IMG/VR virus record: IMGVR_UViG_3300043466_000266
Span: 1-32,120 of that record
Length of the DNA: 32,120 bases
Source of the DNA: a virus
Direction: 5' to 3' (one strand)
The first letter of the stretch is position 1, and each line of letters begins with the position of its first letter. The notes under the pieces were generated by a model. It was not told the origin of the DNA. It made no database searches and saw nothing but the letters and a program-made list of their open reading frames with translations. The translations under genes and the position numbers were made by a program. This document shows, in pieces, positions 9,651 to 32,120 of the stretch.

Positions 9651-10441
9651 TAATCAATCCATATTTAGTGCAGCCAAGTGGGCCTTCATACGGCGCACTA
9701 ACAACTGCGTGGATAGCTGCTACGGGAGAAACGGATACCACTATCTTAGGTGCGTTGAACACACTTGAAACAGACTTAACTACCTATGGACTGACTGCTA
9801 AGATGACTGCGTTATATCCTATGGTAGGTGGCACTGCGGGTAAGCATAAATTTAATTTTATGGATGCAAGGGATTTAGATGCTGCTTATAGATTGGTGTT
9901 TTCAGGTGGGTGGACACACTCGAGTACAGGTGCTTTACCTAATGGAACTAACGGTACAGCAGATACTTATATAGATATAAAAGATTCTCTTGGAATATTT
10001 AATTATTTAAGTAGCCATATCTCTTTTTATTCACGAACTAATACAAATGATTCTGTTTATAGAAACGATATGAGTGCTGTTGAGTCATTGTATTTAAGTG
10101 CTGGGTATCAATATCCAACTTTTCCTGGTATTATTTCTAATTTATCAGTGAGTGGATATAATGGCGTTATATCTAATGCAGATACAAGGGGTTACTATTT
10201 GCATAGCAGAACATCTAACACTGTTAGTAAAGTATTTAAAAATTCAACAATATTAAGAACAGACACAAGAACATCAATTCCATATGCATCTAATGTAACA
10301 ATTAAATTAAGTTATCCAACTGAATATTCTAATAGAGAATTTGCATTTGTATCAGTTGGTACGGGTTTATCTGACACAGAAGCAGCTAATTTCTACACTG
10401 CGGTACAAGCGTTTCAAACTACATTATCAAGACAAGTATAA
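9647..10441 (+). CDS. Putative receptor-binding tail fibre protein
   Basis: 264 residues. The first 85 residues (SYGALTTAWIAATGETDTTI, then GALNTLETDLTTYGLTAKM and LYPMVGGTAGKHKFNFMDAR) form a repeated-looking attachment part seen in many Bacteroidetes-phage fibre genes. The remainder resembles a LamG/concanavalin-type beta sandwich: YRLVFSGGWTHSS, GTADTYIDIKDSL, HISFYSRT, then a Ser/Thr/Tyr-rich strand pattern, ending with the helix DTEAANFYTAVQAFQTTLSR. Such sandwiches commonly bind surface glycans, so host recognition is a sensible inference. The start and stop overlap the neighbours, placing it at the end of the tail-tip operon. The middle of the gene is AT-rich, as variable host-contact regions often are. 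Confidence 0.62.
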   Translation: MIINPYLVQPSGPSYGALTTAWIAATGETDTTILGALNTLETDLTTYGLTAKMTALYPMVGGTAGKHKFNFMDARDLDAAYRLVFSGGWTHSSTGALPNGTNGTADTYIDIKDSLGIFNYLSSHISFYSRTNTNDSVYRNDMSAVESLYLSAGYQYPTFPGIISNLSVSGYNGVISNADTRGYYLHSRTSNTVSKVFKNSTILRTDTRTSIPYASNVTIKLSYPTEYSNREFAFVSVGTGLSDTEAANFYTAVQAFQTTLSRQV

Positions 10442-10698
10442 TGAAACTAACAGACATAAAACAAGTAGAATATCCTAACTATGTAGGACTGCTTACAGAG
10501 GTACAGAAAGATGAATTAGTAGGTCAGCAATATACTGAGGATAGCTATTTCAATCCTATTCAAGATGCGGATGACAATTGGATAATCTCAACTGAGGAGA
10601 TGAACTTCTGTACAAACGTAGATTTTCTATGGGTTAAGGACTTGGATTTAATTCCTTACAATCCTAAACCTACACCACCATTCCCACCAGCGGAATAA
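10441..10698 (+). CDS. Small acidic protein after the fibre gene
   Basis: 85 residues, acidic, with aromatic-rich patches (EYPNYVGLL, YFNPIQDADDNWIIS, FLWVKDLDLIPYN) and a proline-rich end PKPTPPFPPAE. Its start overlaps the stop of the fibre gene, the last position of this operon. Small proteins with the YFNPIQDxxxNWIIS pattern accompany fibre genes in related phages. A fibre chaperone or a minor fibre component is possible, but neither can be shown from sequence. Confidence 0.55.
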   Translation: MKLTDIKQVEYPNYVGLLTEVQKDELVGQQYTEDSYFNPIQDADDNWIISTEEMNFCTNVDFLWVKDLDLIPYNPKPTPPFPPAE

Positions 10699-23573: not shown

Positions 23574-23700
23574 ATTCAAGCTAAACAGCAAAGCTAAATG
23601 GCAAGATGCCTATAGAGTGCTGCAAGCTAACAGCAGAGAGGATGCAATCAAGAAGGCTGACATGTGGCCGCCATTAATTAAAGCAGTGCAAGAGATATGA
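23548..23700 (+). CDS. Small early protein (50 aa)
   Basis: ATG at 23548, inside the end of the membrane-protein gene, to TGA 23698-23700. It begins MKTWKITYKFKLNSKAKWQD and continues YRVLQANSREDAIKKADMW. The 'W-x-I-x-Y...A-N-SREDAIKKA' pattern (a strand, then a helix) is seen in short beta-alpha phage proteins. The stop overlaps the DnaA-like gene by four bases. Function unknown. Confidence 0.6.
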   Translation: MKTWKITYKFKLNSKAKWQDAYRVLQANSREDAIKKADMWPPLIKAVQEI

Positions 23701-24116
23701 ATACATCAATGATAATGGATCTAGCTGAGAAGCATGGTCTGAAAGTAAGAAACAGAAAGCGAGAGCTGGTATATAAGAGATACTACCTTTGGTCAGAGCT
23801 TAGAAGATGGCACAGCCTTGATGCCATTGGGAAGATGTTTGGAATGGATCACTGTTCTGTCTTGCATGGACTAAAGCAGCACAACATTTGGATGAGGGCC
23901 AAAGACTATGAATATCTAAAGACAATCAATGAGCTGCACAAGGAAGTACATGAAGATTATCTGATACAAATGCAAGAGGACAAAGTGTGGATGTGCGTGG
24001 ACCATGTATCAGGCAACATGATTACATTGACACTGAAGCTCAATACAGACGATTCTAGCCACTTTCTACATAAGAGTGGATACATTACTAGGGAGGACTT
24101 AAAAGAATTGCTATGA
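23697..24116 (+). CDS. DnaA domain IV-like DNA-binding protein
   Basis: 139 residues. Residues 20-61 read like the C-terminal DNA-binding domain of DnaA: RELVYKRYYLWSELRRWHSL, DAIGKMFGMDHCSVLHGLKQ. The 'IGxxFGxDHxSVLHG' part is the signature helix-turn-helix that reads DnaA boxes. The AAA+ ATPase domain of DnaA is absent, so it cannot melt DNA itself. The C-terminal half (65-139) is unrecognised. It stands about 260 bases upstream of the repeat cluster at 24376-24545, so it is the best candidate to bind those repeats, either to recruit the primase-helicase at the origin or as a transcription regulator. Confidence 0.72.
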   Translation: MNTSMIMDLAEKHGLKVRNRKRELVYKRYYLWSELRRWHSLDAIGKMFGMDHCSVLHGLKQHNIWMRAKDYEYLKTINELHKEVHEDYLIQMQEDKVWMCVDHVSGNMITLTLKLNTDDSSHFLHKSGYITREDLKELL

Positions 24117-24367
24117 GGAACAAATTAAGACGAATGTCAGCTATTGTATATTGCCTTCAGCAAAGGCCGTACACAATTGCAAGACTGCATACCAGGATAA
24201 ATCATATCCTATCCGATAATTATAGTCAGTCATCCATTGAGAAAGATATCTTCATGCTAAGAGAAGAGTTTGATTGTCCAATAGAAAAATGTCCAGCTGG
24301 ACTGGTGATCCTAGAGGACTATGACTTCATTGCTAAGCTCACAGAATGGGTGCAGCTGTATGAATAA
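24113..24367 (+). CDS. Winged-helix DNA-binding protein (WYL-type N-terminal HTH)
   Basis: 84 residues. LRRMSAIVYCLQQRPYTIAR, LHTRINHILSDNYSQSSIEK and DIFMLREEFDCPIEKCPAGL then VIL follow the layout of the DeoR/WYL-family winged helix: helix, helix-turn-helix with SxxSIEKDIxxLR as the recognition part, then the wing. The C-terminal WYL effector domain is missing. It overlaps the DnaA-like gene by four bases and is the last gene before the repeat cluster. Likely a transcription or replication regulator binding there. Confidence 0.65.
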   Translation: MRNKLRRMSAIVYCLQQRPYTIARLHTRINHILSDNYSQSSIEKDIFMLREEFDCPIEKCPAGLVILEDYDFIAKLTEWVQLYE

Positions 24368-24375
24368 TCTGATTG

Positions 24376-24545
24376 CCGATTACATCAGCTCCTATTCTAT
24401 ATATATTTTATTTTTAAAGAATGTGGTAAAAAACTTTTTTTTCAAAAAATGACAAAATAAATCGGATTATCGGCTGTTGCTTGATTATCAAATAGTTACA
24501 AGCAAAATAAATCGGCAGTAAATCGGATGTTTAAAAATAAATCGG
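24376..24545 (+). repeat. Iteron-like TAAATCGG cluster with AT-rich tract: likely replication origin
   Basis: Within 324 bases lacking a large gene, the octamer TAAATCGG occurs at 24458, 24508, 24519 and 24538, twice extended to TAAATCGGATGTT and three times preceded by A-rich sequence (AAAATAAATCGG). A related TTATCGG lies at 24467 and an inverted AATCGG at 24376-24381. AATCGG is rare elsewhere in the window. Between the inverted copy and the first direct copy is an AT-rich stretch (24392-24461) with A and T runs that could unwind easily. TTATC sequences at 24467 and 24485 loosely resemble DnaA boxes. Position between DNA-binding protein genes and the primase-helicase fits an origin; operator sites are the alternative. 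Confidence 0.62.
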
Positions 24546-24573
24546 ATGTTAAATAACATATGAATATTTGTTT

Positions 24574-24581
24574 TACATTTG
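24574..24581 (+). promoter_or_regulatory. Candidate promoter -7 box before the primase-helicase gene
   Basis: TACATTTG matches TAnnTTTG in the gap between the repeat cluster and the primase-helicase gene. The -33 element at the right distance (24551-24554, AAAT) is poor, so any activity may need an activator, possibly one bound to the adjacent TAAATCGG repeats. Expected transcription start is about 24585. Confidence 0.45.
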
Positions 24582-24583
24582 CA

Positions 24584-24694
24584 ATGTCCTATGCAGAGGA
24601 TTTGAAGAACTTATTAAAGGCTCTTTTGGCGAGTAGTGCTGCATCACGAAAGCTGAAGGGGCCTTTTCATTTAACATACATTCTAGAAAGATGA
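24584..24694 (+). CDS. Possible leader peptide (36 aa) before the primase-helicase
   Basis: ATG at 24584, 36 codons, TGA at 24692-24694 overlapping the ATG of the next gene in the usual ATGA way. The product begins MSYAEDLKNLLKALLASSAA and ends LTYILER, a plausible short amphipathic helix. The predicted transcription start falls practically on this ATG, so it would be leaderless. A 5' untranslated leader with a hairpin (24616-24667) is the alternative reading of the same stretch. Confidence 0.35.
   Translation: MSYAEDLKNLLKALLASSAASRKLKGPFHLTYILER
24616..24667 (+). other. Hairpin in the leader of the primase-helicase gene
   Basis: AAAGGCTC (24616-24623) can pair with GGGCCTTT (24659-24666), eight pairs with one G-T, closing a 35-base loop. 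A short T-rich stretch follows (TTTTCATTT). It resembles a weak terminator or attenuator some 25 bases before the ATG at 24691. Confidence 0.4.
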
Positions 24695-27066
24695 TCTCAA
24701 TATACAAATCAGTACAGCAGACATTTGATAAGAACTACATCACTGTTGAAACTGCCATTGAAAGGATAAAAAATAGTAGATACAGAGATCGTATTCTAAA
24801 AATGCGGACTCTAAGCAAGGATGAATATACCATTGAGAAAAACAAATTACCAGTATACAGATGGTCAGGAGTTTTTGAGTATGGCAATGATGCTGGAATA
24901 AAGACTCACAGCGGACTAATATGCTTAGACTTTGACAAGTATTCTAATGATGAGGTGATGGCAGATCATAGAGCAAAGTTATGTGCAGATCCTTACACTT
25001 ACATTCTGTTCACATCACCATCAGGCAAAGGATTGAAAGTAGTGGTGAAGATTACAGATGTAATTGAGAATCACAGAAAGCACTTTCTATCTTTGAAACA
25101 ACACTTTGATTCTGAGTATTGGGATAACAGCTCAATTAATATCTCAAGGAATTGTTTTGATTCCTATGATCCTGACATCTATGTCAACAACAACAGTGAA
25201 ATATATCTCAGTATAATTGAAGAGGTTGAGGATATTGATGTCACTTATGTGGCTACAATACCAATGAGGTCAACAAATAAGATCATTCAGAACATACAAA
25301 AATGGTTTGACTCAAAGTACCAGCTCTCAGAAGGCAACAGAAACAATAGCTTTTTTAACCTGGCATCAGCATTCAACAGATATGGCATCCAGCAAAGTGA
25401 ATGCGAAACATACATTCTGAACAACTACATTGATGTACTGGGAAGGGATGAGCTACTGCAATGCATAAAATCAGGATATAGAGATAAGGGAGCCTTTGGC
25501 ACATCACAATTTGAGGACAAAGAGATTATCAACTATGTTAAAAATGAACTTAAGCAAGGTGAAAAGCCTAAGACTATAAAGTCAAAGCTCAAAGAATACT
25601 CAGAGGATGAGGTTGAGATAATCATGGATAAGGCTGAAAGTGAATTGAAAAACTTTTGGAGGAAAAATGATAAGGGCCGAGTCACACTATCCCCTACTTT
25701 GTACAGAGATTTTCTAGCAGAGAATGGATTCTTTAAGTATCAGAATTCAGAGCTGTCTTATCTGTTTGTCAAGGTTGAGAATAACTTTGTAAAAGAAATC
25801 AATGAGGATCTAATCAAAGACTTTGTACTGGATCATGTTGAGAAGCAAGGCGATCATGTAGTGTTTGACTTCATGGCATCAGTGACTAAGTATTTTAAAC
25901 GTGACTTTCTGAGCTACATGAAAGCAAAGGATGTAGACTTTATTAGAGATGTCAAAGATAAGGCCTATCTATTCTATAAGAATTGTCTAGTAGAGATCAC
26001 AGCCAAGTCAGTAGAAGAGAAACAATATGTTGACTTCATTCAACATGTTTGGGATAAGCAAGTAATTGATAGAGTTTACAAAAAGTCTAGCAGTAAATGT
26101 GACTTTCAACAGTTTATTGTTAATATCAGCAAGACTCAAGATAGATATGATTCATTCAGATCTGTGATAGGTTACATGCTGCATACTTACAAGAATCCAT
26201 ATTACTCACCAGCGATAATATTAAATGATGAGGATATATCTGACAATCCACAAGGAGGAACTGGAAAGGGAATAATCACTGAAGCACTAAGTAAGTTTAA
26301 AAATACATGCACCATAAACGGAAAGAACTTTGATCCATCTAAGGACTTTGCATTCCAGCGAGTGAGCCTTGATACTCAGATACTCATATTTGATGATGTG
26401 AATGAAAACTTTGACTTTGAAAAGCTCTTTTCAATTGTCACTGATGGGATGCCAGTCAACAAGAAAAACAAGGATGAATTCTTTATTGAGAAGGACAGAA
26501 CGCCAAAGATTGCAATCCCCACAAACTATGTACTTAAAGGTGAAGGGAATTCACATGAACGTAGAAAGTTTGAAATAGAGCTACACAATCACTATGACAA
26601 GACCTTCACACCATTTCATGACTTTGGCCGCAATCTATTCTATGATTGGGATGAGCAAGAGTGGAGCAAGTTTGACAACTTCATGATTGAATGTATTCAG
26701 TATTATTTAAAGAATGGCATTGTCAACTATGCCTCAGTTAACCTGGATGAAAAGAGATTGATGTCAGAGATAGGTCATGATTTCTACAGCTGGATAAATG
26801 ATAACATGAAATTCAATGAGAGAATGATCCTCAAGGATATGTTTGAGAAATTCTGTGATCAGTATCCTACTTACAGAAAGTTTAGTCAGAAGTATACATC
26901 AGGCAGAATCAGAAAGTATGGAGATTATCTTGTAAAGAAAGGTAAACTTACAAGAGTAGATGCCGGCAAACAGAATGGCTCCATTCCTTACATTGAATAT
27001 GTGACTGAGCAAAAGAAAGAATCTGAATGGGATAATTTACAAACAATTGATAAAGCACCTTTTTAA
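24691..27066 (+). CDS. Primase-helicase (VirE/AEP-like primase fused to SF3 helicase)
   Basis: 791 residues: the only large replication enzyme here. The N-terminal domain has the archaeo-eukaryotic-type primase motifs ICLDFDKY (catalytic D80 and D82) and SPSGKGLK (109-116), as in VirE_N/BT4734-like proteins. A helical linker follows (NSFFNLASAFNRYGI). The C-terminal part is a superfamily 3 helicase: Walker A GGTGKG (522-527), Walker B ILIFDD (564-569), motif C KIAIPTNY with N612, then NSHERRKFEIEL as the arginine-finger region. It would unwind the origin and lay primers, with elongation by the host polymerase. It follows the repeat-rich candidate origin. Confidence 0.85.
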   Translation: MISIYKSVQQTFDKNYITVETAIERIKNSRYRDRILKMRTLSKDEYTIEKNKLPVYRWSGVFEYGNDAGIKTHSGLICLDFDKYSNDEVMADHRAKLCADPYTYILFTSPSGKGLKVVVKITDVIENHRKHFLSLKQHFDSEYWDNSSINISRNCFDSYDPDIYVNNNSEIYLSIIEEVEDIDVTYVATIPMRSTNKIIQNIQKWFDSKYQLSEGNRNNSFFNLASAFNRYGIQQSECETYILNNYIDVLGRDELLQCIKSGYRDKGAFGTSQFEDKEIINYVKNELKQGEKPKTIKSKLKEYSEDEVEIIMDKAESELKNFWRKNDKGRVTLSPTLYRDFLAENGFFKYQNSELSYLFVKVENNFVKEINEDLIKDFVLDHVEKQGDHVVFDFMASVTKYFKRDFLSYMKAKDVDFIRDVKDKAYLFYKNCLVEITAKSVEEKQYVDFIQHVWDKQVIDRVYKKSSSKCDFQQFIVNISKTQDRYDSFRSVIGYMLHTYKNPYYSPAIILNDEDISDNPQGGTGKGIITEALSKFKNTCTINGKNFDPSKDFAFQRVSLDTQILIFDDVNENFDFEKLFSIVTDGMPVNKKNKDEFFIEKDRTPKIAIPTNYVLKGEGNSHERRKFEIELHNHYDKTFTPFHDFGRNLFYDWDEQEWSKFDNFMIECIQYYLKNGIVNYASVNLDEKRLMSEIGHDFYSWINDNMKFNERMILKDMFEKFCDQYPTYRKFSQKYTSGRIRKYGDYLVKKGKLTRVDAGKQNGSIPYIEYVTEQKKESEWDNLQTIDKAPF

Positions 27067-27067
27067 T

Positions 27068-27289
27068 ATGAAACAGCAAAGAACAGCAATGCAAGAACTA
27101 ATAAATATTATGAATAATAGTGTTGGTTTAGAAAACGGATTTGAATGGAGAAGAGTAGCGAATTTATTACTTGAAAAAGAAAAAGAGCAGATATTAAATG
27201 CTTTTGAAAATGGAGAAGTATGCACATTATTTAAAAATGAAGATACTTCAGTTAAATACTATAACGAAACCTATAAATCAGAACAATGA
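27068..27289 (+). CDS. Small conserved protein with KYYNETY ending
   Basis: 73 residues from the ATG at 27068, one base after the primase-helicase stop. A TTG at 27047 lies inside the previous gene and is an unlikely start. Features are LLEKEKEQILNAFENGE in the middle and VKYYNETYKSE at the end, a pattern very common in small proteins of Bacteroidetes phages ('KEKEQIxxAxxxG...YYNxTF'). The gene at 28502 looks like a distant relative. It is AT-rich compared with its neighbours. Function unknown. Confidence 0.65.
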   Translation: MKQQRTAMQELINIMNNSVGLENGFEWRRVANLLLEKEKEQILNAFENGEVCTLFKNEDTSVKYYNETYKSEQ

Positions 27290-31844: not shown

Positions 31845-32120
31845 ATTCATTAAACTTTATTAAACAATGTTGTATATCACAAAGCCTTGAGGGACTTGAG
31901 GATGACATCATGCGCAAATACAATCTCACAGAACGCAATAATGTAAATAATCCATGTGTATTCTTTGGGATGTACAGAGAGGAAGATATACAGGCATTGA
32001 TTGGTCATAAAGGTATTTGCTTTGTTGTGTGGATGGGATCTGATGCTAAAGACTTACCAGAAGAATGGATTGAAGAACTGAGCAAGCACATCAATATTTC
32101 TATCAGCATCCATGTACAGA
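31832..32120 (+). CDS. Glycosyltransferase-like protein, 5' part (true start of the gene at the left edge)
   Basis: ATG at 31832, within the last codons of the preceding glycosyltransferase gene, opens a frame MRRVNSLNFIKQCCISQSLE that runs through the repeat into the sequence MRKYNLTERNN... and past the window end. It is the missing 26-residue N-terminus of the gene listed at 2-724. The 13-base overlap with the upstream gene and the absence of any better start support it. Confidence 0.6.
   Translation, partial: MRRVNSLNFIKQCCISQSLEGLEDDIMRKYNLTERNNVNNPCVFFGMYREEDIQALIGHKGICFVVWMGSDAKDLPEEWIEELSKHINISISIHVQ
31861..32120. repeat. Right copy of exact terminal repeat (contig closure)
   Basis: Identical to bases 1-260. 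Removing one copy leaves a non-redundant genome of 31,860 bp. Confidence 0.95.

Follow-up and report, generated by a model that had tools for sequence, protein, structure and literature searches.

Within a 32,120-nucleotide stretch of viral DNA (hereafter the window), the segment 24368-27285 is a cassette that carries a conserved cluster of direct repeats, is associated with replication genes and is swapped among related phages. Directly to the 3' side of the repeats, before the start codon of a primase-helicase gene, lies a leader RNA that an earlier note on this DNA had missed; covariation among its relatives establishes its folded structure, and the excess of G-U over A-C cells the strand that folds. 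Taken as a whole, we read the region as an exchangeable replication cassette with an array dedicated to its helicase and a leader of the attenuator type, an interpretation that we hold with slightly better than even confidence.

The locus and its protein genes

Bases 1-260 and 31861-32120 of the window are identical, forming a 260-bp direct terminal repeat, and the contig therefore represents a whole genome with a circular map, 31,860 bp in length; the gene order of its relatives is a circular permutation of that in the window. A Bacteroidota phage is indicated by the TAnnTTTG promoters and by the named phages whose helicases are related, which are those of Flavobacterium, Polaribacter, Cellulophaga, Nonlabens and Bacteroides. 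The candidate replication origin proposed in the earlier note lies in what proved to be the longest gap of the genome (24368-24690, 323 bp), and the 70-base AT-rich tract to which the note drew attention proved to be the AT maximum of the genome, located inside this gap (Table 1). The GC-skew check proposed for the origin was uninformative whether all positions, third codon positions or non-coding sequence were used: skew is positive and monotone around the whole genome with no significant turn (block-shuffle p 0.14-0.58), and speaks neither for nor against an origin at this site.

Table 1. Positions of features in and near the cassette (window numbering)
Feature	Position	Strand	Basis
DnaA-domain-IV-like protein, 139 aa, HTH only	23697-24116	+	Pfam Bac_DnaA_C; Foldseek; context
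84-aa protein, possible winged helix (weak)	24113-24367	+	PuR_N E=0.09
Exchangeable cassette: array, promoter, leader RNA, helicase (and small ORF)	24368-27285	+	G005 comparison
Inverted copy AATCGG (CCGATT on +)	24376-24381	-	Conserved in cassette A
AT-richest 70-mer of genome (87% A+T)	24393-24462		Composition
TAAATCGG repeat 1	24458-24465	+	Motif scan
TTATCGG variant repeat	24467-24473	+	Motif
TAAATCGG repeat 2	24508-24515	+	Motif scan
TAAATCGG repeat 3	24519-24526	+	Motif scan
TAAATCGG repeat 4, end at -41 from predicted transcription start	24538-24545	+	Promoter model PMC6847099
Bacteroidota -7 element TACATTTG	24574-24581	+	43/44 RNA loci; consensus PMC6847099
Leader hairpin 1, UCCU-AUGCAG-AGGA, loop L1 24591-24596	24587-24600	+	All 4 pairs covary
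Leader hairpin 2, terminator-like, loop L2 24639-24644	24616-24667	+	Covariation
Primase-helicase, 791 aa	24691-27066	+	BT4734-like_N, PriCT_1, DUF5906; PHROG 28855 4e-164

The gene at 23697-24116, described there as a DnaA-type DNA-binding domain without an ATPase, matched Pfam Bac_DnaA_C with E=1.4e-5, slightly short of the cut-off, and the AlphaFold model of its product matched the DnaA-DNA complexes 3pvp (probability 1.00) and 1j1v (probability 0.99) in Foldseek. The product has the domain IV helix-turn-helix (HTH), with the fold and the D-H...H signature of the DNA-binding helix seen in DnaA of E. coli (1j1v) and M. tuberculosis (3pvp); unlike DnaA, it consists of the C-terminal-type domain alone, lacking the AAA+ ATPase domain III, and is found beside several unrelated replication modules. 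The downstream gene, named earlier as a primase-helicase, has a P-loop (NPQGGTGKG) and the domains given in Table 1; the SF3 class that the earlier note gave to the helicase was not established, the signs seen being the P-loop and the DUF5906 match. Its C-terminal part, for which there were too few relatives, was modeled with a pLDDT of 41, so that a DNA-binding domain there is putative at most. The winged-helix identity suggested for the 84-aa product was not established, the PuR_N match being the only one in Pfam. No homologues of the DnaA-like protein were found in named phages by tblastn, and we found no description of phage proteins limited to DnaA domain IV in the open-access literature, most subscription papers lying outside the scope of the search. 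A named phage from a Manatee Spring sample (MW202828.1, our L120) encodes a helicase 41% identical to that of the window and, a few genes upstream of it (L120:1297-1599), a 100-aa product whose gene is annotated dnaA.

The repeat array and its exchange with the helicase

The four direct copies of TAAATCGG, the TTATCGG variant and the inverted copy were all present as previously described. The window has no further TAAATCGG copy in its 32,120 bases (0.18 copies expected); none of 100 shuffles contained 4 or more copies, and when 5,000 spacers of matching composition were generated at random, none held an 8-mer with 3 or more G/C in as many as 4 copies. Among relatives that carry this array, the repeat columns were less variable than the spacers (6/39 as compared with 31/81, p=0.012). 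As in iteron-type origins of plasmids and phages, direct repeats that are clustered beyond chance and unique to the site adjoin an AT-rich tract and a replication gene. The phage array differs from such origins in that it swaps with a primase-helicase, not a classic Rep, and in that its binding and origin activity are putative.

Relatives of the window in IMG/VR keep the DnaA-like and 84-aa genes and diverge in what comes next. Cassette A, as in the window, consists of the TAAATCGG array and the 791-aa BT4734/DUF5906 primase-helicase. Cassette B has an unrelated array, of GTGCACAC and GGTGTGAAA, followed by a 742-aa Prim-Pol/DUF3987 helicase with an HTH at its C-terminus. The exchange is seen most directly in G005, which matches the window at 96% and 95% identity on the two flanks and has only 24368-27285 replaced; across this swap the leader RNA alone can be aligned (84%). 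In 2 cassette-B phages, L006 and L008, the DnaA-like protein is identical to that of the window over residues 1-89, and TAAATCGG is missing. Because array and helicase are thus exchanged under an identical DnaA-like HTH, the array appears to track with the helicase cassette and not with the DnaA-like gene. Phages of a more distant type (L087, L106 and L108) have a third array, GTGACGGT/ACCGTCAC, ahead of a related helicase, which in L106 is 37% identical to the window's overall, 50% in the AAA core and 23% in the last 100 residues.

These comparisons bear on what reads the repeats. The earlier note held that the DnaA-like protein finds the TAAATCGG array and that the helicase then unwinds the DNA; the DnaA-like gene does adjoin the array and its product does have a true domain-IV fold. 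However, the same DNA-binding domain stands beside an unrelated array in the cassette-B phages, and in most relatives the DnaA-like gene is accompanied by no array, so that we rejected such a split initiator, which we judge quite improbable. The candidate origin itself is still reasonable, in view of the array, the AT tract, the longest gap, the adjacent helicase and the joint exchange of array and helicase, but loses its DnaA-like reader. That the array is instead an operator with no origin function, to which the helicase, the 84-aa product or some host protein binds as repressor or activator, is possible, although on balance we think it somewhat unlikely. The array lies directly to the 5' side of the helicase promoter, between roughly -41 and -128 relative to where transcription is predicted to start, its TAAATCGG copies are spaced by roughly whole helical turns (11, 19 and 50 bp), and autoregulated Rep operons are common. 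In plasmid pRN1, likewise, a repressor gene and a replication protein gene are coupled, according to the abstract of PMC4234260. Yet the neighboring AT-richest tract and the joint exchange with the helicase fit an origin equally well, and the 84-aa protein is unlikely to be an array-specific binder, since it is kept across the swap.

We consider it likely, then, that the array is a helicase-linked origin or operator. The ATCGG/TAAATCGG array would be a cis element dedicated to the primase-helicase of its cassette, most probably the helicase's own origin, its autoregulatory array, or both; the helicase would bind it and the DnaA-like protein would not. It should be noted that some observations run against this reading. 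The TAAATCGG array is exchanged with the helicase among relatives, yet L020 has both arrays followed by helicase B, so that array A can occur apart from its helicase, as a remnant at least; there is no skew signal; and phages with DUF6291-type modules have no array here. In most of these loci, and in most other phages with this order of genes, the stop codon of the DnaA-like gene lies 2-12 nt from the promoter and leaves no room for an array.

A conserved leader RNA at the head of replication operons

The promoter consensus of F. johnsoniae, TAHHTTTG, spans -12 to -5 with T at -12 and G at -5 (PMC6847099). Judged by this consensus, the -7 element of the window would be used as a promoter, with a transcription start predicted at about 24586, one base ahead of hairpin 1; in 36 of 44 loci hairpin 1 begins 0-2 nt from the predicted +1. 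Hairpin 2 combines a stem of 15 bp with an AGUA/GAA internal loop, a GUG-CUGCAU-CAC apex and a U-tract, which in the window is short and weak (UUUUC). The internal loop resembles a loop-E motif. Such a G+C-rich stem and U-tract between promoter and gene are the features of an intrinsic terminator or attenuator. The hexaloops L1 (AUGCAG) and L2 (CUGCAU) are exact complements.

Our RNA searches fixed only letters of hairpin 2, and one of them left its loop free; they yielded 44 distinct RNAs. A TAnnTTTG-type element precedes hairpin 1 in 43 of these, a figure that reflects its use as a selection criterion, the one exception kept being L095. In all 44, the loop of the 5' hairpin is complementary to loop 2, with eight loop types represented; the partner loop was absent from pattern matches that lacked the promoter and lay outside this setting. 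For the 28 pairs of the MAFFT alignment A1, 96.6% of cells were standard pairs, as compared with 41-54% in slid controls, and there were 170 two-sided changes as compared with 46 in shuffles. The kissing helix between L1 and L2 was paired in 100% of cells and 4 of its 6 pairs covary; when the loop columns were left out of tree building, the tree implied at least 11 loop changes, complementarity always being kept. G-U cells outnumbered A-C cells across the RNA pairs (143 to 19), and hence it is the transcribed (+) strand that folds. The window RNA alone folds just 1.5 sd better than its shuffles, and the case rests on covariation.

No curated score was reached for any of the 4227 families of Rfam 15. 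The leader RNA occurs in one copy in each genome tested. Its model R1 also picks ordinary terminators, and bacterial terminators match the hairpin 2 portion. An exact-core scan of bacterial genome contigs gave four chance matches, and 396 Bacteroidota genomes gave two weak ones, both of them simple terminators in which the AGTA/GAA loop is missing. Named phages gave nothing beyond chance matches (in MW202828.1 none matching, best E 0.5), and the open-access literature, with most subscription papers outside its scope, contained no description of the RNA. We regard it as an undescribed element.

The RNA heads at least 4 kinds of replication module in many otherwise different phages. It is followed by helicase A, by helicase B or by an HNH gene and then a BT4734-like helicase; at other loci DUF6291 or Lin1244_N proteins come next and then P-loop proteins resembling DnaB-type helicases, and at some the first downstream gene has no assignment. 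A DnaA-IV-like gene is located within 1.5 kb upstream of the RNA in 40 of the 43 testable loci; L139, L140 and L146 are the only RNA loci with sufficient upstream sequence in which it is missing. We also noted, by eye, an HNH-like homing endonuclease gene between the DnaA-like gene and the RNA in L053 (about 10120-10632, a reversed locus) and between the RNA and the helicase in L106 (about 2547-2873) and L108. A GCAACTTT-like motif lies about 20-30 nt to the 5' side of the -7 element in L053, L082, L087, L123, L142 and others, and recurs in coding (the end of the DnaA-like gene) and non-coding stretches; it could possibly be a -33 element or a target of the DnaA-like protein.

The loop-1 hexamer is present a third time in 28 of the 44 loci, and this further copy, which we call D, ends 3-6 nt before the start codon (L083:4196-4318, L085, L143 and 25 others), as against about 0.013 per locus expected by chance. 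Where present, the letters of D covary with loop 2. D is missing in the other 16 loci, among them the window and its nearest relatives. In L125, L126, L135 and L136, which have no D, the RNA is followed by a small gene and then by a 259-aa ORF that by eye is thymidylate synthase-like.

Proposed action of the leader and comparison with known systems

The helicase gene would be transcribed from the promoter at 24574-24581, and roughly the first 80-95 nt of its mRNA would form a structured leader in which hairpin 1 stands at the extreme 5' end, hairpin 2 resembles an intrinsic terminator and the two hexaloops kiss. Pairing of L1 with L2 is demonstrated by covariation; the leader most likely acts as an attenuator, and we propose that an alternative pairing may relieve termination. 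We infer attenuation and the direction of the switch: the hold of L1 on L2 would set how much transcription reaches the replication gene and, in relatives with D, also its translation, since there loop 2 could pair either with loop 1 or with the region of the start codon. Structure in the start region is known to lower translation in F. johnsoniae, of the same phylum (PMC6847099). Because D is absent from the window family, only the kissing and terminator part can apply there. The output of the leader would determine when the replication initiator is made and in what amount.

It is unlikely, in our estimation, that the leader serves mainly as an independent small RNA, ending at hairpin 2 and acting as a replication primer or in trans, for example through pairing of L2 with D of the full-length mRNA. 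The RNA has its own promoter, a 5' hairpin, a terminator-like 3' end and exposed complementary loops, and 28 of 44 downstream genes offer D as a target. However, D is missing from the remaining 16, and the leader always directly precedes an operon of replication type that runs in its own direction, and the two are exchanged together. It is most improbable that the conserved stretch codes for a leader peptide or forms a hairpin at the DNA level. The window does contain a 36-codon frame that opens with an ATG at 24584 and whose TGA stop overlaps the start codon of the helicase (24584-24694), and third-position entropy in the open frame is somewhat higher, 0.77 against 0.42 and 0.57. Yet that ATG lies before the predicted transcription start and the frame is not conserved: an in-frame ATG after the predicted start occurs in just 5 of 44 loci, the frame ends 24 to 207 nt past the motif, and three loci have an immediate stop, so that the leader peptide is unsupported; the predominance of G-U over A-C favors a fold of the transcribed strand. 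An extension of the attenuator reading, which we advance tentatively and think rather doubtful, is that a kissing-loop leader with a switchable third partner represents a new class of phage riboregulator, one that would set the expression of interchangeable replication modules, serve unrelated replisomes as a common regulatory head and work with the DnaA-domain-IV-like protein, whose gene lies directly upstream, as an RNA- or promoter-binding partner.

The nearest working analogy to the attenuator-type leader, though no relative of it, is the repZ leader of plasmid ColIb-P9 (IncI-alpha), in which loop pairing sets expression of the initiator (Asano and Mizobuchi 1998, as cited in PMC8383071). 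From that account, both are leaders of initiator mRNAs with long-range loop pairing near the ribosome-binding region, a likeness that extends to the D sequences of 28 of the 44 relatives. The phage leader differs in that its loop is matched, with perfect covariation, by the loop of another hairpin in cis, hairpin 2 being terminator-like, and in that no antisense RNA is evident and no sequence relation to repZ was seen; a loop complement just before the start codon, as in repZ, was found neither in the window, which has no D, nor in its nearest relatives. Plasmid pRN1 likewise has genes for a regulator and a replication protein (orf56/orf904) in one operon with an essential promoter region; it is an archaeal plasmid, and neither an array nor a kissing leader RNA is described in the abstract of PMC4234260.

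The natural swap uncouples the DnaA-like proteins from the arrays; an inference that comes naturally but is wrong is thereby put right, and the target of these proteins has to be sought elsewhere. It indicates that these uncultured phages exchange their replication genes in cassette form and keep a conserved promoter-leader RNA at the head, and the structure of this RNA makes predictions that can be tested base by base. If the attenuator reading is true, the leader would be to these phages what copy-number leaders are to plasmids, and its structure is not represented in Rfam: a 5'-terminal hairpin, a loop-E-like motif, kissing hexaloops and an optional copy at the start codon.
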